A stretch of 36,683 nucleotides of DNA from Deltaproteobacteria bacterium (GTDB taxonomy: Bacteria; Myxococcota_A; Polyangia; DRWM01). This document shows, piece after piece, positions 482 through 28,109 of this stretch (the stretch's first letter is position 1; each line of letters begins with the position of its first letter). The notes beneath the pieces were generated by a model. It made no database searches and was not told where the DNA came from. It saw nothing but the letters and a program-made list of their open reading frames with translations. Position numbers and translations under genes: made by a program. Location: positions 1 through 36,683 of the forward strand of contig JAFDER010000003.1 in assembly GCA_019310245.1 (NCBI GenBank). The letters are read 5' to 3'.

Positions 482-2554
482 TTAGGACTTGGCGGCGCGG
501 AGGGAGTTCGAGATCATGAAGACGGCCAGGCCGATGATGACGGCTCCACCCAGCAGGTAGGCCAACGCTCCGGTGACGATCGGACCGGCGACGAGCCGGA
601 CCTGGGCGGCCACGAGACTCGCGAGAAGCAGGCCCATGAGGGCCTCTCCCGCGACGAATCCAGAGGCAATGAGGAGCCCCCTGTTCTCCACGGCCTCGAG
701 CGCCTTGCCGTCCGTGATGCCGCGCCTCCTGACGGCGGCGTCCGCGAACCACTTGATGATCCCGCCCGTGAAGATGGCGAGGACCGTCTGGAAGGGGAGG
801 TACATGCCCACGGCGATGAGCATGGGTGACGGAGCGCCGATGAGGATGAGGCCACCGGCGAAGCACACTCCGATGATGACGAGCTCCCAGGCGATCTGCC
901 CCGAGATGATGCCCTTGGCCATGGTGGCCATCAGGCCGGCCTGGGGGGCGGGCAGGGCCTCGCCTCCAATGCCCTTTCCGCCGGACGCGATGTCCGAGTT
1001 GTGCAGCAGCGTGATGACGGCCACGAGGACGAAGGCGGCGGCGATGACACCGATGATGCCACCGATCTCCATCTTCCACGGGGTACCACCCAGGTTGTAG
1101 CCCACCTTCCAGTCCTGGGCCATGTCACCGGCTACGCCCGCGACGCAGCACACAACGGTGGCAACGCCCAGGACGGCGAGCACGCCGGCGCGCATCTTGT
1201 CGCTCATGGTGACCCCGTCATCGAGGTACCCGCCTCCCATGTTGAAAACGACCAGCAGGCCTGCAGCGATGAGGAGCGTCGAGAGCGTCAGGCCGGAGAT
1301 GGGATTCGAGGAGGAGCCGATGATGGAGACGAGGAAGCCGGCCACGGCGGCGAACAGGAATCCCGTGATGGCCATCACGATGGTCATGATGAGCGAGACG
1401 GGAATGGAGCCGCACAGGATCCAGTACAGGGCGAACATGGCGACTACCATGCAGCCGATGGCGGCGAACACCATCTTGATGCTGAGGTCCTTGTCCGTGC
1501 GCTTGACGTCTCCCGTGCTGCCGGTGGCGCCGCCGATGCTCTTGAACGAACGGACGAGACCCTCGATCAGGTTCTTGCGCATGTTGAACAGCGTGAAGAA
1601 CGCTCCGACGATCATGGCGCCGATCGCGATGATCTTGATGTTCTCGCCGTAGAGGACGCTCAGGCCCATGAAGCTCTTGAAGCCCTCGATGGGCTGGCCG
1701 TAGAGCGCGTGACTCTTCGGGTACCCCTCGAAAAGGAGCTGGAAGTCGCCAGCGGAGACGAGGGCGGCGAGGGTCTCCGAGAAGCCGGGATCGCTCAGCC
1801 CCATCGTGTACAGGACGATGGGAGTGAGGAAGAGCCAGCCGAACACGCCGCCGGACGCCGTGATGGCGCCGTAGCGTGGGCCGATGATCCAGCCCACGGC
1901 GAGGAACGCGGGCGACGGAGCAGGCGTGAGGAACGGGAACGTGCCCTTGCCGATGCCGAAGGCGGCCTTGATGTGCCCGCCGATGATCGGGATGCCGCTG
2001 CTGTTGCGGAAGAACTCGAGAAGACCGGCAAGACCCATGGATCCGAACACGTGCTTGGCGCCGGAGGCGCCGCCCTGGCCCGCCTTGACGATCTCGGTGC
2101 AGGCAGCCGACTCGGGGAAGGGCAGGGTGGCATCCTCGACAAAGGTCCGCCTGAGCAGGATGACGAACAGGACGCCCAGGACGCCGCCGACCGTGAGGAG
2201 GGCCGTGGCGAGCAGCCAGTTCGGGGAGAGGATGGAGATGTCGTCCCAGGCTCCGACGAGAATGAACGCCGGGATCGTGAAGATGGCCCCGGCAGCGAGC
2301 GCTTCACCCACGGCGCCAGTGGTTCTCGCGATATTCTCCTCGAGGATGTTGCCCTTGAAGAGCCGCAGCACGGCCATGGAGATGACCGCAGCGGGGAAGG
2401 TCGCGGCAACGGTCATGCCGGCCTTGAGTCCGAGGTAGACATTCGCCGCGCCCAGCACGATGGCCATGATGCCACCGAGGATCAGGGGCGCGATCGTGAA
2501 CTCCTTCATGGTCGTATCGGCATCGACGTATGGCTTGAATTCGGCTTCTGCCAT
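482..2554 (-). CDS. OPT-family oligopeptide/metal-chelate transporter
   Basis: Multi-TM protein; 'EFTIAPLILGGIMAIVLGAANVYLGLKAGMTVAATFPAAVISMAVLR' is a typical OPT N-terminus; internal ATG at 2554 (MAEAEF...) preferred over the ORF-track start at 2611. Confidence 0.9.
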   Translation of the reverse strand: MAEAEFKPYVDADTTMKEFTIAPLILGGIMAIVLGAANVYLGLKAGMTVAATFPAAVISMAVLRLFKGNILEENIARTTGAVGEALAAGAIFTIPAFILVGAWDDISILSPNWLLATALLTVGGVLGVLFVILLRRTFVEDATLPFPESAACTEIVKAGQGGASGAKHVFGSMGLAGLLEFFRNSSGIPIIGGHIKAAFGIGKGTFPFLTPAPSPAFLAVGWIIGPRYGAITASGGVFGWLFLTPIVLYTMGLSDPGFSETLAALVSAGDFQLLFEGYPKSHALYGQPIEGFKSFMGLSVLYGENIKIIAIGAMIVGAFFTLFNMRKNLIEGLVRSFKSIGGATGSTGDVKRTDKDLSIKMVFAAIGCMVVAMFALYWILCGSIPVSLIMTIVMAITGFLFAAVAGFLVSIIGSSSNPISGLTLSTLLIAAGLLVVFNMGGGYLDDGVTMSDKMRAGVLAVLGVATVVCCVAGVAGDMAQDWKVGYNLGGTPWKMEIGGIIGVIAAAFVLVAVITLLHNSDIASGGKGIGGEALPAPQAGLMATMAKGIISGQIAWELVIIGVCFAGGLILIGAPSPMLIAVGMYLPFQTVLAIFTGGIIKWFADAAVRRRGITDGKALEAVENRGLLIASGFVAGEALMGLLLASLVAAQVRLVAGPIVTGALAYLLGGAVIIGLAVFMISNSLRAAKS

Positions 2555-2600
2555 GTCCACTCTCCGTTTCGAGTCAGTGTGTGCGAGGCGGCGGAAAGTC

Positions 2601-2629
2601 AGCGTACCCATGCGGTGCTATAAAGTCAA
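2601..2629 (-). promoter_or_regulatory. Putative sigma70-like promoter for the OPT gene (TTGACT-N17-TACGCT)
   Basis: -35 at 2624-2629, -10 at 2601-2606 (minus strand), 17-nt spacer, upstream of the start at 2554. Confidence 0.35.
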
Positions 2630-2778
2630 CGTTGATCGGGTGGCCGGCCTGTTGCATGATCGTGAAACGGGGCGGTGCGGGAGGCGTGACGCGTCCGCCG
2701 GCAATTCCCACATGAACGACGATTCAACCGACGGGTCGAACGGGCTGCTCGGAATGCGGAACAGCGGCCTTCCGGAGC

Positions 2779-2794
2779 TGTTTCACGTGAAACA
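2779..2794. promoter_or_regulatory. parS: parS centromere site (ParB binding), perfect TGTTTCACGTGAAACA
   Basis: Exact 16-bp palindromic parS consensus in the intergenic region between the OPT and TolC-like genes; symmetry extends to 18 bp (CTGTTTCACGTGAAACAG, 2778-2795). Confidence 0.88.
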
Positions 2795-2799
2795 GGGGC

Positions 2800-8376: not shown

Positions 8377-9417
8377 TCATCTCAGGACAAGCATCGCGTC
8401 GCCGTAGGAGTAGAAGCGGTAGCGCCTCTGCACGGCCTCTGCGTAGGCCGCCCGGACGGTGCTCACGCCCGCCAGCGCCATGACCAGCGCGAGGAGGGTC
8501 GAGCGCGGCAGGTGGAAGTTCGTGACGAGGTCGTCCACCACCGAGAACGCGTGCCCCGGGCGGATGAAGAGATTCACGGGGCCGTCCAGGGCGCGGACCC
8601 CGCCCCGCCCGTCCGCGGCGGCCTCGAGGGCCCGCACCACGGTCGTGCCGCAGGCCACGATCCTGCGTCCCTGCTCGTGCGCCCTGCCGAGGGCCATCGC
8701 CGCCTCCCGCCCGATCCTCACCCACTCCTCGTGCATGCGGTGCTCCTCGATCCTTCCCTCGCGCACGGGCTGGAACGTGCCCGGTCCCACGTGCAGCGTG
8801 ATCGTCAGGATGGAGTGGCCGCGCGAGCGCAGCGTGTCGAGGAGCCCGTGCGTGAAGTGCATGCCCGCCGTCGGCGCCGCGGCGCTGCCTCGCGTGCGCG
8901 CGTATACGGTCTGGTAGCTGGCCTCGTCTTCCTCCTCGACCGGCCGGTCGATGTAGGGCGGCAGCGGGACCTGTCCGCAGCGGTCCACGGCCTCGCGTAC
9001 CGCTCCTTGCCTCGCCTGCAGGGCCACCTCGAACAGTCCGCCCTCCATTCGCTGAGTGATCTCGATGCGGAGATCGCCGCACGCGGCGCGCGTCCCCGCG
9101 CGGAGCCTCCCGCTGCCGGAGCACAGCGCCAGCCACCGCTCGTGCGGACCGGCGGTGGACGTGCGGCGCGTCAGCAGCACCTCGAGACGGCCACCGGTCG
9201 TCTTGGTGCCGACGAGCCGCGCCGGGAAGACGCGGGTGTCGTTGAGCACGAGCACTGATCGCGGCTCGAGCAGATCCGCGATCTGGCAGAACCCTTGGTG
9301 GCGGATCCGGGCCGAGCCGCGTTCGAGGACGAGCAGCCGCGCCCCGACCCTGTCCTCGAGCGGGCGCTGGGCGATGAGCTCGCGCGGCAGCGCGTAGTCC
9401 AGCTCCTCGATCTTCAT
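8377..9417 (-). CDS. queA: S-adenosylmethionine:tRNA ribosyltransferase-isomerase
   Basis: 'LPRELIAQRPLEDRVGARLLVLER', 'VLNDTRVFPARL', 'PTAGMHFT', 'TNFHLPRSTLLALVMALAG' are QueA signatures. Confidence 0.95.
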   Translation of the reverse strand: MKIEELDYALPRELIAQRPLEDRVGARLLVLERGSARIRHQGFCQIADLLEPRSVLVLNDTRVFPARLVGTKTTGGRLEVLLTRRTSTAGPHERWLALCSGSGRLRAGTRAACGDLRIEITQRMEGGLFEVALQARQGAVREAVDRCGQVPLPPYIDRPVEEEDEASYQTVYARTRGSAAAPTAGMHFTHGLLDTLRSRGHSILTITLHVGPGTFQPVREGRIEEHRMHEEWVRIGREAAMALGRAHEQGRRIVACGTTVVRALEAAADGRGGVRALDGPVNLFIRPGHAFSVVDDLVTNFHLPRSTLLALVMALAGVSTVRAAYAEAVQRRYRFYSYGDAMLVLR

Positions 9418-12400
9418 TTGCCTGCGATGCCGGGATCGAGCGTGAGGGCCCGGGTGAAGGCCTGCTCTGCCGCGTCCATCTCGTCGAGAGCCTTCAAGGC
9501 CATGCCCAGGTTGAGCCAGGCGCGGGCGAGCTCCGGATCCAGGTCGGTGGCCCTGAGGTGAGCCTCCGCCGCATCGGCCCAGCGCTTCTGCCCGGCGATG
9601 GCGAGCCCGAGATCCGTCCAGGTCTCCGCCGAGCGCGGTTCGAGCCAGAGGGCGCGGGCAAGAGCGGCCTCGGCGCCGTCGAAGTCCGCGAGCGCCAGCA
9701 GGGCGAGTCCGCGGTCGTAGGCCGGTGCGAACCAGAACGGATCGAGCCTCTCGGCCTGCGCATGCGACCGGACGGCCTCGTCCCAGCTCTTGCGAGCCCC
9801 GTGTGCGCGTCCCAGCCCGTGGTGTGCCTGTGCGTCCGTTGGTGACAGGGCGATGGCGATGGTGAAGTTCTCGACCGCGATCTGCGGCTCGCCTCGCGCG
9901 AGGAAAGCGTCGCCGAGGTGCACCCACGTGCGGCGGAACGAGGGATCGATGCGCGCGGCCTGCTCGAGAATATTCGCGGCCTCGTACGGGTCGCCCAGGG
10001 CCATGATCGCCATGGCGAGGTTGTTGAGCGCGAGCACGTTCTCGGGTTTGGCCTCGAGCACGCGGCGGTAGGCGCCCTCGGCCTTCTCCCACCTTCCGGC
10101 CCGTGCATGCGCCAGGCCCATGTGGAACCAGGGGCGCGGGTCGCCCGGCGTCAGCGCCGCGGCCCTTTTGAGAACCTCCACGGCCCCGTCGAAGTCGCCG
10201 AGCGACTGGAGCGCGGTTCCCGCCTCGAGCAGGATGCGCGCGTCGTCCGTGAAGGCGGCCGCGAGCCTGCGGTTGTACGTGCGTGCGCTGGCGAGCTCCT
10301 GCGCGTAGCGCGCCAGCTTGGTGGATCGCTCGTTGAGCGAGGCCGCCCGCGCCGCCTCGCCGCGCAGTGCGAAGCCCTCGGCCGCGCGGTATGCCTCGAG
10401 CTCCAGCTCGAGGGCGGCGGCCTCGTCGATGTGCACCGGCGGGACCAGCAGGCCGCCCAGCGGCTCCGCGACCTGGCCGAGCGCCTGAGGCCCCATGCGC
10501 GGTCCGCGAGAGTGGCGCGTGACGTAGGGAGTGAGCGGCTGGTCGTCAGTGTTCACTGGAAGACCAACGGTCCATCGGTCCAGCGCCTCGGGACCTGCCA
10601 CGAAGCAATCGAGCACCGATGCGGGCGTGTCCAGCCCCCACCGCGCCATCTCGCCGCCCACGGCCTCGTCGTCCATGCGCGAGGCGATCCTGTCGGCATG
10701 CACGTCGATGCGGCCGCCGGGCGATCCCACGAGCAGCGCGTATCCGGTGAACCCGATGCGGTCGTAGCCCGCGTTCACCCAGAGCTGGCCCTCGGAGAAC
10801 GAGTCCAGGAACGTGCGCACGAGGATGCGGAACTCCGTCTCGCTCATTCCGTGCAGCGGCACCCACTGCACGAGGATGCCGTCGTCGGCGAGCCGCGATC
10901 GTGCCAGCATGTAGAACTCGCTCGTGTACAGGACCCACGAGTCCACGGCCCGCGGATGGGTCGAGTCCACGGTGATCACGTCGTAGTGCACGTGCGTTGT
11001 CAGCAGGTGGTTGCGGCCGTCCTCCACGAGCGTCCGCACGTTCTTTTTCTCGTGCAGCGACCCGTTGAGGTCGGCGAACAGCCGTGCTCCGTCGATGACC
11101 CTTGCCTCCAGGTCGACGACGGTGACGTCGAGTCCTGGATGCGTCGCCACGGCGCCTGCAGTGAGCCCGGCGCCGTAGCACACCACGAGTGCGCGCTGCG
11201 GGTCGGGGTGCAGGAGCGGGCCGAGGTGTCCGAGAAGGGAGAACGACTGGTCGTGCACGTAGCGCGTCGTGACCTCGCCCACCGCGTTGACGAACAGCTG
11301 GCGCATGCCGTCGAGCCGGTCACGGGTCACCGTGACCGTGCCCGTGCGGCCCTCGGCGTGCAGCAAGATCTCCTGCGTCGGTCCGCCCACCATCGCGTGC
11401 GCGATGCGCCTCGTGCCGCCCGATGGGCTCAGGGCGGCGAGCGCGGCAACGGCCGCAAGGCCCACCGCTGCGGCGATCCTGAGGCCGAGGCCGGTGCGCC
11501 TGCGGGCGAGGACGAGCACGGCGGGCACCGCCGCGGCCGCGCATCCCGCAGTGAGCGCTCCCTGCACGCCGAGCCACTCGACCAGTCCGACCGTGGGCAG
11601 GAGGGCGCCCGCGACGCATCCGGCCGCGTTCCATGCGGTGATCCTGCCGATGGCTGCTCCTGCCACCGCGGGCTTCGGATCCATGGCCGCGCACGCGAGG
11701 GGAAAGACGGCTCCCGCGGCGGCGGCGGGCAGGAACGCGACGAGGAACGAGAGCCCGAGCGGGTGCAGGAGACCGGCGCCCGGGTCGATGCCGAGCGATG
11801 CGCCGGCCAGGATGCCGAAGGGATCCGGCCCGGACCGGATCACGAGGGCCGCCGTGGCGGCGAAGCAGCCGAGAGCGGAGGCGCTGGAGGCGAGGAGCAG
11901 CGCTGCGGCCCAGGAGAGCGGGGACGCGGCCTTCCTCGTGATCGCACCCGCGATCGCGCCTCCCGCCGCGAGGCCAGCGATGGCCGCGACGAGCATGAAG
12001 GCGAACCCGTATGTGTCGTGGCCCAGGACCAGCACGAGGAACCTGCTCCACAGCCGCTCGAGCAGGAGCACGAGCGCTCCGGAGGTGAAGGCCAGCAGGG
12101 CTGCGGCTCGCCCGGCGCGCGTGACCGCGGCCCCTTCCAGCCTCGCCGGCACGGGTTTCTCACGTCCCCGCGCGATCAGGGCCAGTGCGGCTGCCGCCAG
12201 GTTGAGCGCTGCGGCGACCCCCGATCCCGCCGAGATCCCCATGACCGGGACGAGCCAGATCCCCGCGGCCGCCGCTCCGCCGCACGCACCGAGCGTGTTC
12301 GCCGCGTAGAGCCAGCCGAGGGCGCGGCCGGCGTCGCCCGGCGCCCTCGAGAGCCGCCTGACGAGGAGCGGCAACGTGGCGCCCATGACGGCCGCCGGCG

Positions 12401-12791
12401 CCGCCACGACGAGCACGGCGATCCCCAGCCGCACGGCCCATGCGGCGCCGCCGTCCCACAGGACGGCTCCCGCTGCCGCCGGAAGCACGGACCGCGCGAT
12501 CGCCGGTACGGCGATCGCGCACAGGGCGAGCACCCCTTCGAGCGCGGCGTAGACCACCAGGGGATCGCGCACGCGGTCGCCCAGCCTTCCCAGGTAGAAG
12601 GCGCCCAGGCCCATGCCGCCCATGAAGGCCACGAGCACGGCGGCCGAGGCGTCGGCGCTGTTTCCCAGGGCCGGAACGAGGGCGCGGCTCCACAGCACTT
12701 CGTAGACGAGCGCTGCGATGCCGGAGGCAAGGCAAGCCGCATGGATGAGGAGCGTTGCGGCGCGCGAGGCCGCTCTTGGCGGGCCCTTCAC
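9414..12791 (-). CDS. Fused MFS-like membrane domain / spermidine synthase-like domain / C-terminal TPR array
   Basis: 1125 aa: N-terminal TM bundle ('GIAALVYEVLWSRALVPALG'), SAM-binding-like 'ALVVCYGAGLTAGAVATHPGLDVTVVDLEARVIDGA...DGRNHLL..YDVITVDSTHP', then multiple TPRs; overlaps queA start by ATGA. Confidence 0.85.
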   Translation of the reverse strand: MKGPPRAASRAATLLIHAACLASGIAALVYEVLWSRALVPALGNSADASAAVLVAFMGGMGLGAFYLGRLGDRVRDPLVVYAALEGVLALCAIAVPAIARSVLPAAAGAVLWDGGAAWAVRLGIAVLVVAAPAAVMGATLPLLVRRLSRAPGDAGRALGWLYAANTLGACGGAAAAGIWLVPVMGISAGSGVAAALNLAAAALALIARGREKPVPARLEGAAVTRAGRAAALLAFTSGALVLLLERLWSRFLVLVLGHDTYGFAFMLVAAIAGLAAGGAIAGAITRKAASPLSWAAALLLASSASALGCFAATAALVIRSGPDPFGILAGASLGIDPGAGLLHPLGLSFLVAFLPAAAAGAVFPLACAAMDPKPAVAGAAIGRITAWNAAGCVAGALLPTVGLVEWLGVQGALTAGCAAAAVPAVLVLARRRTGLGLRIAAAVGLAAVAALAALSPSGGTRRIAHAMVGGPTQEILLHAEGRTGTVTVTRDRLDGMRQLFVNAVGEVTTRYVHDQSFSLLGHLGPLLHPDPQRALVVCYGAGLTAGAVATHPGLDVTVVDLEARVIDGARLFADLNGSLHEKKNVRTLVEDGRNHLLTTHVHYDVITVDSTHPRAVDSWVLYTSEFYMLARSRLADDGILVQWVPLHGMSETEFRILVRTFLDSFSEGQLWVNAGYDRIGFTGYALLVGSPGGRIDVHADRIASRMDDEAVGGEMARWGLDTPASVLDCFVAGPEALDRWTVGLPVNTDDQPLTPYVTRHSRGPRMGPQALGQVAEPLGGLLVPPVHIDEAAALELELEAYRAAEGFALRGEAARAASLNERSTKLARYAQELASARTYNRRLAAAFTDDARILLEAGTALQSLGDFDGAVEVLKRAAALTPGDPRPWFHMGLAHARAGRWEKAEGAYRRVLEAKPENVLALNNLAMAIMALGDPYEAANILEQAARIDPSFRRTWVHLGDAFLARGEPQIAVENFTIAIALSPTDAQAHHGLGRAHGARKSWDEAVRSHAQAERLDPFWFAPAYDRGLALLALADFDGAEAALARALWLEPRSAETWTDLGLAIAGQKRWADAAEAHLRATDLDPELARAWLNLGMALKALDEMDAAEQAFTRALTLDPGIAGK

Positions 12792-18753: not shown

Positions 18754-19760
18754 GCCGCGTGGGACGCGGGGCAAGGAGCGCGGCGCTGGTCACGGGGTTT
18801 CCCGGGCCGGTGGCCCGTAGCGTGATCTCCGGCCTGGCCGTGGACGGCGGCGATGTGGTCGTGCTCGCGCGCGAGCGCGACTCACGCGCCGCTGAGGCCT
18901 TCTGCGCCGCGCTGGGCCCGTCAGTGAGCGTGATGAGGGGAGATCCCGGCCGCGTGGATCTGGGGCTCGGGGGACCCGAGGCGGCGGGAGTGCAGGACAG
19001 GCTGACCACGCTCTTCCACCTCGAGGAAACGGATCCCGGCGCCCTTGACAGGGCGGGCCTGCGCGCGGCCCGCGAGATCGCCGCGTTCGCGGCGTGCGGA
19101 CGCTCCGTGCGGCTGGTCGCCCTGGCTCCGTTCGGCGTCAGCGATGACGGTCCGGGGGTGCTCGAGCGCGTGCTCGGCGGCCGTGGCGCGGACCTCGGCG
19201 CCTCGTTCCTGCGAGCCGGGGTGGGCTGCGGTCCCGAGGGCCCCTGGCCGGTCGCGGGCAGGGGCCGGCTGCTCCATCTCATCGTGCTGCTGCACCTGAG
19301 CGTGGACATCCGCAGGCTGCGGAGCGTGGCGTCCCGCAGGCTCGTCCTCACCTGGGCTCCGCTCATCGCGGAAGCGGCGCTCGGGGCCTGTGCCGGATCT
19401 CACTCCGGCGAGCTGGATCTGACCGATCCCAGGCCGCCCAGCCTCTCACAGGTGGACCGTGCACTGAGCGGCATGCTCGATGGCACGGACGGGATGGACG
19501 CCGAGTTCCTCACGGCCTGCAGGCGGCACCGCGACGGCGTGATCGGCCGCTGGATCGGACGGAAGGATCCAGTGGACGTGCTGGCCTCCTGGACCGTGGC
19601 CGGGTCGCTCGGTGGCGGAGGCGAGAGGGCGGCACGTGATCTGGGCCTCGAGTGGCTGCCCACGCTCGACGTGCTCGGTGCATGCCTCGAGGCCGTGGTG
19701 CGTGACGTGAAGGCCGACCTGGGCGAGGAGGCCGAGGTGAGGGATGCCCTTCTAGGGTGA
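18750..19760 (+). CDS. Rossmann-like (SDR/NAD-dependent epimerase-like) hypothetical protein
   Basis: 'AALVTGFPGPVARSVISGLAVDGGDVVVLAR' divergent nucleotide-binding start; GTGA overlap with coaE stop (alternative GTG 18759). Confidence 0.6.
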   Translation: MSRVGRGARSAALVTGFPGPVARSVISGLAVDGGDVVVLARERDSRAAEAFCAALGPSVSVMRGDPGRVDLGLGGPEAAGVQDRLTTLFHLEETDPGALDRAGLRAAREIAAFAACGRSVRLVALAPFGVSDDGPGVLERVLGGRGADLGASFLRAGVGCGPEGPWPVAGRGRLLHLIVLLHLSVDIRRLRSVASRRLVLTWAPLIAEAALGACAGSHSGELDLTDPRPPSLSQVDRALSGMLDGTDGMDAEFLTACRRHRDGVIGRWIGRKDPVDVLASWTVAGSLGGGGERAARDLGLEWLPTLDVLGACLEAVVRDVKADLGEEAEVRDALLG

Positions 19761-21050
19761 GGCCCAGGCGGCCTCGATGACGACGTCCGCCCGTGCCGAG
19801 GGCAGTCCCTCCACGAACAGCACCCGGCGGCCGCGCCTCTCGACCACGGCGATCTGGTCTGCCTCCAGCCCGAACACATCGCCTCCGGGAGCCTCCTCTC
19901 GCCCGGCCGCGGGATGCCGCGCCTCGAGGTACTGCACGAGCGCGGCGGCGAACTGGACCGCCTCGGCGTCGGGATCGTCCTCGGGCCCCGGGTCCCAGGT
20001 GCTCATCATGACGAACACCCCGTGGCCGAGGTGGCCCTCTCCCACCTTCTTCGACGATGGCCAGAGGAACGCGTACCGGTCGCCGCCCCATCCCTCTGCC
20101 GCAGCCCGGGCCGTGTGCGGGACGATCCACTCCTCGAGCCAGGCGCTCAGAGCAAACTCGCCCATCACGTCCTCGGAGGCCAGGCGGTAGACCGCGGTGA
20201 GGCAGGAGGGGAGACGAAGGTCGACCTCGATGGGTGGGTCCTGTCCCAGCCGCTCGGGGTGGATGACCTGCTCGGTGGAGGCGGGCGGGCTCTCGAAGAG
20301 CCCGTTGACGGCCTTGTACCCGCCCTGGGCGTAGACGTTCCTGACGAGCACGTAGCCGTAGAGGTACGGGAACAGCAGGACCGAGCGCAGGAATCCCGGG
20401 GCCTTGGCCATGGCCTGCCCCTCCATGGGCGCCATCTGCATGAGCAGCTTCATCTGCTTGACCGTGATGCCTGCCGGCAGGAGGATCGATGTCATGACCT
20501 GCTCCATGAGCAGGGCATCGCCCTCGGCCACGGCCTCGAGCGCGGCGTTGCGGTCGGCCGTGCCCGGCTTTCGCTCCGTCAGCGCGCTCAGATCGAAGTT
20601 CATGTCCTGAATGGCGTGCGTGCACTCGTGCACGAGAACGCCCTCCATCACGGCCTCGGACGTGCCGCCGAGCAGCACCAGCTCCTTGGCACGGGGATCG
20701 TAGAGCCCCATGATCTGCTCCTCGAGCAGACCGTAGATGATCTGATCGTAGGCCGTGCCGGCGGGCAGGAGGCCGAGGCGCGTCAGCAGACGTCCCTCGT
20801 CCACGATCTCCTCGGGCTCGTACTCCGCGGCCACGAGCTGGTAGAGCCGGGCGCGCAGCTTCTCGCGCTCCATCACGCTCCACGAGACGGGCTGCGAGAG
20901 CTTCAGGCCGTGCTCCTTGGCGATGCGCCCGGCCAGGGCCTGGATCTCCAGGCCGTCCCAGAGCGCGGGAGGCGCGGCGGCCGGGGCCAGGACGAGGGTC
21001 GCCGCCAGGACGGCAGGCAGGGCGTGCGTCCAGAGGCGTTCGATTCTCAA
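19752..21050 (-). CDS. Secreted zinc metalloprotease-like protein (HExxH variant HECTH)
   Basis: Signal-like N-terminus 'LRIERLWTHALPAVLAATLVLAPAAA' from TTG; 'MEGVLVHECTHAIQDMNFD' and 'EAVAEGDALLMEQ'. Confidence 0.75.
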   Translation of the reverse strand: MRIERLWTHALPAVLAATLVLAPAAAPPALWDGLEIQALAGRIAKEHGLKLSQPVSWSVMEREKLRARLYQLVAAEYEPEEIVDEGRLLTRLGLLPAGTAYDQIIYGLLEEQIMGLYDPRAKELVLLGGTSEAVMEGVLVHECTHAIQDMNFDLSALTERKPGTADRNAALEAVAEGDALLMEQVMTSILLPAGITVKQMKLLMQMAPMEGQAMAKAPGFLRSVLLFPYLYGYVLVRNVYAQGGYKAVNGLFESPPASTEQVIHPERLGQDPPIEVDLRLPSCLTAVYRLASEDVMGEFALSAWLEEWIVPHTARAAAEGWGGDRYAFLWPSSKKVGEGHLGHGVFVMMSTWDPGPEDDPDAEAVQFAAALVQYLEARHPAAGREEAPGGDVFGLEADQIAVVERRGRRVLFVEGLPSARADVVIEAAWASP

Positions 21051-21070
21051 GGGTGGGCTGGCCCTCGGGC

Positions 21071-22816
21071 CTAGGAGCAGGTCGGGTTGGCGGCGCCCGG
21101 GGAGCCGTAGTTGCTGGCGGCGCCCGTCCACATGGCCGAGCCGTCGCACCAGTTGGTGAAGGTGTCGTTGTCCGTTGCCGTGAGCGTGGACGGGTCGAGG
21201 CTCCAGCTGTCGCCCTCGGTCACGGTCCACGACGAGCCGTCCCACGCCACCGCGTCGATCGTGGTGCCGCCGTCGATCACGCTCAGGGTGTCCGCGCTCG
21301 TCTCGTCGAAGGCGAGGCCCGCGTAGACGAAGTCGGGGGTGGGCAGGTTGTCGTTCTCGCCGGGGGTCGAGCTCAGGGCCAGCAGCGCGTAGTTGCTCCC
21401 CGCGACCAGCACGTCCGAGTCGATGGTGTCCGTGGCCGAGCCGGTGCCGATGGTCAGGCCGTTGAGGTTCACGGTCATCGAGCCGGGGTTGTAGATCTCG
21501 AACCACTCGCCGGTCGTGTCCGACACGGTGGCCGGATTCATCATGATCTCCGAGACCACCAGATCTCCTGCCATGAGCGGGGTGACCGTGACGGTCACCG
21601 TCCCGGGGGTGGAGCCCACGGTGTTCGTGGCCGTCAGGGTGTAGACCGTGGTCGCCGTGGGAGTCACGTCCGCCGTGCCGTCCGTGGTGAACGTCGAGGG
21701 CAGTGACGAGTCAGCCGGAACGCCGACTATTGCGACCGAGTCGGCCAGCGTGGTGTCCCAGGTCAGCGTGGTGGCCGTGCCCGGCCGGATCTCGGTGGGC
21801 GCCGCGGTGAAGGACTCGATGATCGGCGCCGTGGGAGTGGTCGTGACCTCGATGGTCAGCCTGTCGAGCATGATGCCTCCCGGCCCGGTGGCCGTGAGCG
21901 TGTACTCCATGGTGCCCGTGGGCGTGGCCTCGGCAGTGCCAACGCACTCGCGCCACGCGTCGCAGTACTGGGCCGAGTAGCCCGAGAGCTCGACGGAGTC
22001 GGCCTCGCGCACCTCCCAGCGCACCGTGGTCGCTCCGCCCAGGATGATCGTGTAGTCGTCCGCCGTGAAGGAGGTGATCTCGGGCAGGGGCACCTCGAAG
22101 AAGCCCACGTAGTTCTCCGCGTAGTCGGATAGGTCTCCCGCAGCTTCGTGGAGCTGTGCGTAGAAGCCCGTGTGGTGGGAGATCTTCAGGAAGCTCGTGC
22201 TCGAGGCGCAGTCGGTGACCTCGAACGTGCCGTGCAGCGTGTCGCCGTCCGTGTCGAAGTTGTGGATCATCTCCACGCCACCACGTTCCAACCACGTCCT
22301 GTCGTCATGAATGAGCGCGGGCTCGACGATGCCCATGTGCAGGGACATGCCAGCCTGCACGTTGGCGATCGTGTAGTGGAACTGGGCGCACTCGCCCGGC
22401 CCGAGCCAGGGAGATTCCGGGTAGAAGGCGACGAGGTGGTCGCGATCCGGCACGTCCGTGGTGATGTCGACGTACTGCTCCGCCTCGCGCCTCGAACCCG
22501 TGTTGTAGGCCCGGAGCACGAGCGTCAGGGCGGAGTGCACCCGGTACTCGAGCGCGCCGTTGGGCGTGATGTCGGACTCGAAGAGCACGTCGTAGCTGTA
22601 GTCGCCCTCGGCGCCGATCCTCTCCATGATCGTGATTCGATCCGCGTACGTGGTCTGCCATGACAGGAGCCTGTAGTCGCCCTCGTAGGCATCGATCGGG
22701 AACGCTGCGAACTGCAGGATCGCCGGGGTGTACTTCGGCCCCGTGCTCTCACCGCAACCGCCCGCGAGCGCGGCGATCACCGCGCAAGCGGCGAGGTGTT
22801 TCGTGATCTTGGCCAT
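21071..22816 (-). CDS. Lipoprotein with Ig-like repeats and C-terminal lamin-tail (LTD) domain
   Basis: Lipobox 'ALAGGC'; 'GDLVVSEIMMNPATVSDTTGEWFEIYNPGSMTVNLNGLTIGTG' LTD signature; 'TWDTTLADSVAIVG' Ig-like repeats. Confidence 0.8.
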   Translation of the reverse strand: MAKITKHLAACAVIAALAGGCGESTGPKYTPAILQFAAFPIDAYEGDYRLLSWQTTYADRITIMERIGAEGDYSYDVLFESDITPNGALEYRVHSALTLVLRAYNTGSRREAEQYVDITTDVPDRDHLVAFYPESPWLGPGECAQFHYTIANVQAGMSLHMGIVEPALIHDDRTWLERGGVEMIHNFDTDGDTLHGTFEVTDCASSTSFLKISHHTGFYAQLHEAAGDLSDYAENYVGFFEVPLPEITSFTADDYTIILGGATTVRWEVREADSVELSGYSAQYCDAWRECVGTAEATPTGTMEYTLTATGPGGIMLDRLTIEVTTTPTAPIIESFTAAPTEIRPGTATTLTWDTTLADSVAIVGVPADSSLPSTFTTDGTADVTPTATTVYTLTATNTVGSTPGTVTVTVTPLMAGDLVVSEIMMNPATVSDTTGEWFEIYNPGSMTVNLNGLTIGTGSATDTIDSDVLVAGSNYALLALSSTPGENDNLPTPDFVYAGLAFDETSADTLSVIDGGTTIDAVAWDGSSWTVTEGDSWSLDPSTLTATDNDTFTNWCDGSAMWTGAASNYGSPGAANPTCS

Positions 22817-26234: not shown

Positions 26235-28049
26235 TCACTTGGACTTGACCCTGATGTAGATGGACACGTTTCCCTCAAGCAGGTACGGCGTCGTGATGAA
26301 GTGGCGCTCCAGGATGGCGAGCGGCGCCTCTCCCAGGTACGCGGCCTTGGGCTGGAACGTGGACAGGGCCGAGAGGGGGAGCTTGCCGATCATCTGCCCC
26401 TTGACCGTGACTCCCGCGCCCGGCACCTGCACCACCGCGACGACCTTGTCGTCCGGATAGCCCAGGGCCAGGTTGGCGAGCACGTCGTCGAGGTCCTCGG
26501 GCGGGGCGAAGTCGGGCGGCACGCGGCCGCCCGGTTTGAAGTCGATCCTCAGGTCCTTGCCGGCCGTTCCCTGAGGCACCTTGAGCTTGAAGCCCAGGGT
26601 CATCTCGGCTCCGCGGTGCGGCTTGAGGATGACCCACACCTTGATGCTGTCGCCCTCCTCCACCTCGTCCATGTTCGCGTACGCTCCGGCGATGACCGCC
26701 ACGTCGTGGCCGTACTCGAGGTCGAGGTCCACGACCACCTTCTCGAGCCGGACCTTCTCGAAGCTCGAGCCCATGATCGCGTACAGCGCCTCGGAGAGCC
26801 TCTGCGAGTAGGCGAGGCTCAGCGTGCCCGAGGACAGGAATATCTTATGGTCGAAGATCAGGGGCTCGTGGCCCGCCACCTCGATGCGATAGGTGCCGTC
26901 GGCCACGGTGTCGACCACCTCGAGCGCGAAGTGGTCCACCGCGCTCGTCAGCGCCGAGCGCACCAGGTTCGCGGTGGCCTGGTTGTGGTGGGCAATGTCC
27001 ATGTGCCAGTCCTGCGTCAAGCCCCTGGTCGTGTCCCTGAGCCGGATGTCGAGGTCCACGGTGTCCGGCTCCACGTCCATGTCGGCCATGATGCCCGCCT
27101 GGCGGTCCTGGACGATGCTGCCGAGACCCGCCCCGGACTCGCTCATCTTGAACGAGAACGACGACGAGGCGAGGCAGTGGTGGATCTCCGCGCGGGCGGC
27201 GGGGAATCGCACTTCGCCCCAGTTGAACATGGGGTGGCCGAAGCCCAGGGCTCGCGAGCCCTTGACGGCGGTGACGGTGCCCGTGCCCGCCATGTCGAGG
27301 TCGCCTCCCACCAGGCGGACGGCGATCGCGTCACCAGGCCGGAACTTCTTGATCTTCTTGGTTTTCTTGTCCTTCTTGGCCTTGCCCTTCGTGCCGGCCT
27401 TGGCCGGAGACGACGGGGTCGCGACCATGAAGTGCGAGTCGAGCACCGAGGAGAGCGCCTTCAGGAAGCCTCCCGACAGCGGCCCCGAGCCCGAGACCGG
27501 CGTGGCCAGGGGCACCATCTGGGATCCCTGCAGGTCGAACCGGTCCCAGAACGCCTTGCCCGGGGGTGTGGCGGGGGCGGCCGCGTGCGGCGACGGTCCC
27601 ATGATCTTCGACGAGCCCGTGCCCAGGCCGGGCGGCATGAGCGGCAGATCGAAGTACTTCGTCATGGACGCGATGGGCGTGATCCCGGCGATCGGGTCCT
27701 TGGCGAACCTCCACGCGTAGGCCACCGCTCCGGCCATCTTGCCGTCGAAGTACACGGGCGAGCCGCTCATGCCCGCCAGGACGCCGGCATGATCGAGGAC
27801 CGGATGGGAGCAACGCGCCAGGATGAGGTCCTGGTTGGGCAGGAACGCATGGATGACGCTGATGACCTCGACATCGAAGCGCTCCGGGTCGTGTCCCGAG
27901 AACACGGTCATGCCGTGGCCCTTCATCCCCGGCTTGATCTCGTCCACCGGGATGGTCTCCGTGTTCTTGGCCTTGCCGCCGGCCGCGAGGCCGAAGGACA
28001 GGGCGAGGGCTACGGCCGCGAGCGCGGCTGGAAGTGCATCTCTTCGCAT
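26235..28049 (-). CDS. SpoIVB-type S55 peptidase domain protein
   Basis: 'IPVDEIKPGMKGHGMTVFSGHDPERFDVEVISV' and 'AGMSGSPVYFDGKMAGAVAYAW' S55 signature; N-terminal signal peptide. Confidence 0.85.
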   Translation of the reverse strand: MRRDALPAALAAVALALSFGLAAGGKAKNTETIPVDEIKPGMKGHGMTVFSGHDPERFDVEVISVIHAFLPNQDLILARCSHPVLDHAGVLAGMSGSPVYFDGKMAGAVAYAWRFAKDPIAGITPIASMTKYFDLPLMPPGLGTGSSKIMGPSPHAAAPATPPGKAFWDRFDLQGSQMVPLATPVSGSGPLSGGFLKALSSVLDSHFMVATPSSPAKAGTKGKAKKDKKTKKIKKFRPGDAIAVRLVGGDLDMAGTGTVTAVKGSRALGFGHPMFNWGEVRFPAARAEIHHCLASSSFSFKMSESGAGLGSIVQDRQAGIMADMDVEPDTVDLDIRLRDTTRGLTQDWHMDIAHHNQATANLVRSALTSAVDHFALEVVDTVADGTYRIEVAGHEPLIFDHKIFLSSGTLSLAYSQRLSEALYAIMGSSFEKVRLEKVVVDLDLEYGHDVAVIAGAYANMDEVEEGDSIKVWVILKPHRGAEMTLGFKLKVPQGTAGKDLRIDFKPGGRVPPDFAPPEDLDDVLANLALGYPDDKVVAVVQVPGAGVTVKGQMIGKLPLSALSTFQPKAAYLGEAPLAILERHFITTPYLLEGNVSIYIRVKSK

Positions 28050-28109
28050 CGTCTCGTGTCTCCCTGAAGTTTTGGGAGTGACAATATAGGCCATTTCAGT
28101 GGTTGGACG

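Follow-up and report, generated by a model that had tools for sequence, protein, structure and literature searches.

The 16-bp palindrome at positions 2779-2794 of the window, the window being the whole stretch of 36,683 nucleotides analysed here, raises the question of whether a perfect match to the bacterial centromere parS can be a working chromosomal centromere when no par gene is found next to it. The window represents the entire contig C552 of assembly G000, a draft metagenome of 4.58 Mb in 679 contigs that is 70% complete, and, as noticed in the first-pass annotation, neither parA nor parB is present anywhere on this contig. In known ParABS systems, ParB-CTP clamps load at parS and slide, ParA moves the resulting complex and SMC is recruited, a single parS near oriC being sufficient (PMC7333895, PMC7022226).

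The palindrome and its putative cognate ParB

The site and its immediate surroundings comprise the following features:

482..2611, minus strand: OPT-family oligopeptide transporter gene flanking parS; the longest frame starts at 2611
2555..2799, no strand: intergenic stretch between two minus-strand genes, holding parS and a broken copy of it
2650..2669, plus strand: parS-like copy with a 4-bp insertion, TGTTGCA[TGAT]CGTGAAACG, from a gapped-pattern scan
2779..2794, no strand: parS, TGTTTCACGTGAAACA, from scans of the window and the assembly (consensus in PMC7022226)
2800..4317, minus strand: TolC-like outer membrane efflux protein gene flanking parS

The sequence TGTTTCACGTGAAACA is a perfect 16-bp palindrome and, in the window scan, agrees with parS at all 16 positions, as had been claimed from the sequence; it thus matches the consensus TGTTNCACGTGAAACA (PMC7022226) as a chromosomal parS does. 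When up to three mismatches to parS are allowed, 2779-2794 is the only match in the window, as against 0.04 in dinucleotide shuffles. Based on base composition (67.8% GC), 6.5e-7 exact matches are expected in the window, in agreement with the earlier statement that a chance match is very unlikely in 36 kb, and 8e-5 in the 4.58-Mb assembly. The genome-wide search that had been proposed shows that, with up to two mismatches, this site is the sole parS match in the 70% complete assembly, and the reversed parS, used as a control pattern read backwards, gives no match in the same assembly.

The position of the site between the OPT and TolC-like genes is likewise confirmed by the gene coordinates. 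These two genes are arranged in tandem, both on the minus strand, with the stop codon of the TolC-like gene (2800) 6 bp from parS. The OPT gene probably starts at 2554, with GGAGAG just ahead, rather than at the longest-frame position 2611. No relatives of OPT or TolC were found beside parS in the parS regions of related genomes, and these flanks are therefore not considered as part of the feature. Further along the window, a large protein encoded at 9414-12791 combines an MFS/spermidine-synthase-like region with a TPR array, and a match to SpoIVB-type S55 peptidases, here outside endospore formers, is found at 26235-28094.

The first-pass annotation overlooked the interrupted copy at 2650-2669, which reads TGTTGCATGATCGTGAAACG and lies about 110 bp from the intact parS. 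Without its TGAT, this sequence becomes TGTTGCACGTGAAACG, letter-identical to a parS variant that occurs twice in G002, a genome of the same order. No parS with an internal insertion was seen in 60 random Markov-1 windows of the same dinucleotide make-up, for which the gapped pattern had been picked after the copy was sighted. The segment is likely the relic of a second parS, which suggests that a parS cluster formerly existed here.

As for the protein partner, the assembly contains one ParB_N protein above threshold, encoded on the 3-kb contig C72, where parA (AAA_31) lies directly upstream of parB in a canonical parAB operon. This ParB possesses all three domains, ParB_N, HTH_ParB, and ParB_C, and its alignment to the Caulobacter ParB 6t1f reveals that the GERRWRA box and the equivalents of R173, T179, and G201 are kept, with a T at the position equivalent to A184. 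R173 and G201 are conserved in the ParB proteins that read parS and are Q and R in Noc (PMC7383237). Since the C72 ParB keeps these parS-reading residues, it is expected to recognise exactly TGTTTCACGTGAAACA, and the assembly thus holds, besides the site, a putative cognate ParB with residues of the parS type (R173/G201) and a ParA. A Noc/NBS pair was considered as well, given that it also associates a ParB-fold protein with a 16-bp palindrome. However, the C72 ParB carries R at position 173 and G at position 201, against Q and R in Noc, and the site is parS and not NBS; the identity was rejected, as the alignment shows that the protein is not of the Q173/K179/K184/R201 type.

Position relative to the origin and competing explanations

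Within G000, dnaA (C167), dnaN (C670), and parAB (C72) each lie on a different short contig, none of which is that of the window (C552), and distances between them are therefore indirect. The window's own GC skew gives no indication in this respect. Proximity to the origin was consequently assessed through synteny, with two markers:

19752..21506, minus strand: Hvo_1808-like / DUF6782 putative metallopeptidase gene, second synteny marker
21071..22816, minus strand: lamin-tail-domain protein gene, synteny marker with relatives in four same-order genomes

In all four of these genomes, the lamin-tail gene has its best relative on the parS contig (G001 C503, G002 C42, G003 C521, G004 C30). There, some 9-13 kb past parS, this relative precedes that of the adjacent gene 19752-21506. 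In two of them (G002 and G004), dnaA, adjoining dnaN and gyrB, is found approximately 12 kb from parS on the side opposite the markers. A relative of 19752-21506 is also located 7-9 kb from parS in three genomes of another family (G108, G110, G114). The marker pair of the window lies 17-20 kb away from parS, with its orientation reversed compared to G001-G004; being both farther away and reoriented, it points to a local rearrangement of the locus. Since relatives of 21071-22816 occur on the parS contigs of four same-order genomes, the window is almost certainly origin-proximal chromosome, of which the parS at 2779-2794 would be the mark. The earlier remark that parS sites lie around origins thus holds for this locus, its location near oriC being reached indirectly, via the same-order genomes.

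Taken together, the exact match, its uniqueness in the assembly, the presence of ParB and ParA, and the oriC-proximal synteny support the initial identification of the site as parS, and we consider, with a probability of about 0.9, that TGTTTCACGTGAAACA would be a working chromosomal parS centromere near oriC. Among the observations that had been named as decisive for this identification, a ParB homologue and a near-origin location were both found, while a second intact copy was not detected in the assembly.

A first alternative is that 2779-2794 represents a stray or secondary parS remote from the origin and devoted to local ParB binding or regulation, the main cluster being hidden in the 30% of the genome that the assembly lacks. 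This explanation draws on the detection of one intact site in a 70% complete assembly, on the two to seven clustered sites seen in many relatives, and on the precedent of Myxococcus xanthus, in which a secondary parS exists away from the main cluster, at 349 kb (PMC3899335). It is nevertheless improbable, as marker synteny puts the contig beside the parS of four same-order genomes, these four genomes likewise carry one or two sites, and the broken copy suggests that the former cluster was at this very locus. A second alternative takes the palindrome, located between the TolC-like and OPT genes, for a transcription terminator or the operator of a repressor that merely resembles parS; in its favour are the location 6 bp past a stop codon and a possible RNA fold (6-7 bp stem, ACGT loop, z = -2.05). 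Yet there is no T run, searches of 2555..2799 returned no terminator-like or promoter-like match, the genome holds no further copy, unlike what an operator family would show, and the identical 16-mer is found across the class next to oriC genes in unrelated flanking contexts, making this explanation very hard to sustain. Chance or an assembly artefact, conceivable in a draft metagenome, can practically be dismissed in view of the 8e-5 matches expected per assembly and of the same-order synteny.

Considering TGTTTCACGTGAAACA as a working parS, we infer that binding, spreading, and segregation would take place at 2779-2794 by analogy with known ParABS systems. ParB would be supplied from the unlinked parAB operon, would load on parS as a CTP-dependent clamp, and would slide and spread onto the adjacent DNA. 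ParA would then move the ParB-DNA complex, which would also recruit SMC, and newly replicated origins would be drawn apart as an outcome. In comparison with Bacillus subtilis, the site shares all 16 positions of the universal parS and a location near the origin, but G000 has one intact copy against ten Spo0J-bound sites in B. subtilis.

Separation of parS and parAB across the class

The absence of parAB beside the site, which the first-pass annotation hinted to be odd, proves to be general in the class, which we infer to be Polyangia (Myxococcota) and from which 59 genomes, including G000, were sampled. A ParB search of named genomes did not point to a single class, its matches coming from Acidobacteria, Clostridia, and Myxococcota alike. 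Sites with up to two mismatches to parS are found in 52 of the 59 genomes, and in none of the 41 having both a listed parS and a chromosomal-type ParB do the two share a contig. A canonical oriC-linked parABS locus was accordingly rejected for G000, whose parAB and parS are on different contigs. This class norm accounts for the lack of par genes at the site, and their unlinking from parS is the only unusual aspect of this parABS.

By contrast with parAB, parS belongs to the oriC gene block throughout the class: dnaA lies on the parS contig in 19 class genomes, at 6-17 kb in 18 of them and at 65 kb in G047. The gene order in G021 is recF-dnaN-dnaA, rnpA-yidC-jag-mnmE, bioD-bioA-bioF-like, parS, and a bioF-like aminotransferase gene, often together with bioD/bioA, adjoins parS across most families, including those in which dnaA has been displaced. 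The parAB operon has another neighbourhood, which in several families comprises folD, a gene for a PilZ protein, and lon.

The distance between the two parts could be measured on 11 complete or near-complete class chromosomes of 10.3-16 Mb, which are non-independent as they come from two families and six genera. In these, parS is 3-31 kb from dnaN, and parB lies at 34-49% of the chromosome from parS in 11/11, on the terminus side, some of the chromosome lengths behind these percentages being good only to 0.1 Mb:

parB-parS separation, % of chromosome: G105 49, G129 46, G136 36, G140 34, G150 46, G157 45
parB-parS separation, approximate %: G137 ~41, G138 ~41, G151 ~42, G152 ~45, G158 ~45

In the large family f12, which is probably Polyangiaceae, dnaA is 0.7-1.5 Mb from the dnaN-recF-gyrB/parS block (G105, G129, G136-G138, G140, G150-G152), and the f12 records that start at dnaA therefore probably do not start at oriC. 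GC skew was sampled in G157, where it is noisy, and in G150, using 60 samples of 20 kb that cover 8% of the chromosome, a 20-point sampling being too noisy. In G150, the half that starts at parS and ends at about 50% has a positive mean skew, and most of the remaining half a negative one; the best breaks fall close to 12.0 Mb and 5.6-6.0 Mb (permutation p = 0.002). This fits with an origin located within the parS/dnaN region, or at most 1.4 Mb from it, and with parB (5.37 Mb) near the terminus.

We therefore favour as likely a split parABS in Polyangia, in which parS would have been kept in the oriC block and parAB moved to the terminus half, so that ParB would act wholly in trans and parAB would be at low copy when origin number peaks. 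Chromosomal par operons are regarded as a conserved oriC-proximal feature (PMC7022226), and no report of a split parABS in Polyangia was found in the literature searched. The sister class Myxococcia is instructive in this respect: M. xanthus has 22-24 parS of consensus TGTTCCACGTGGAACG, located about 4 kb upstream of parA, and its parAB lies some 30-35 kb from oriC (PMC3899335, PMC3778016). G000 thus resembles M. xanthus in its chromosomal ParA and ParB and in a parS near oriC, but differs in having parS and parAB on different contigs, 34-49% apart in the complete class genomes. Given this linkage in the sister class, the split appears to belong to Polyangia and not to Myxococcota overall. While the site at 2779-2794 is an ordinary origin-proximal parS, the class-wide unlinking of parAB is the more interesting result: a class with large genomes and parAB near the terminus in all complete genomes examined offers a natural test of the role of linkage, or of the dosage of an early-replicating parAB, in segregation. 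As a minor observation on site number, G036 (L024) contains seven parS-type sites within 0.65 kb (872-1516), several of them 37-38 bp apart.
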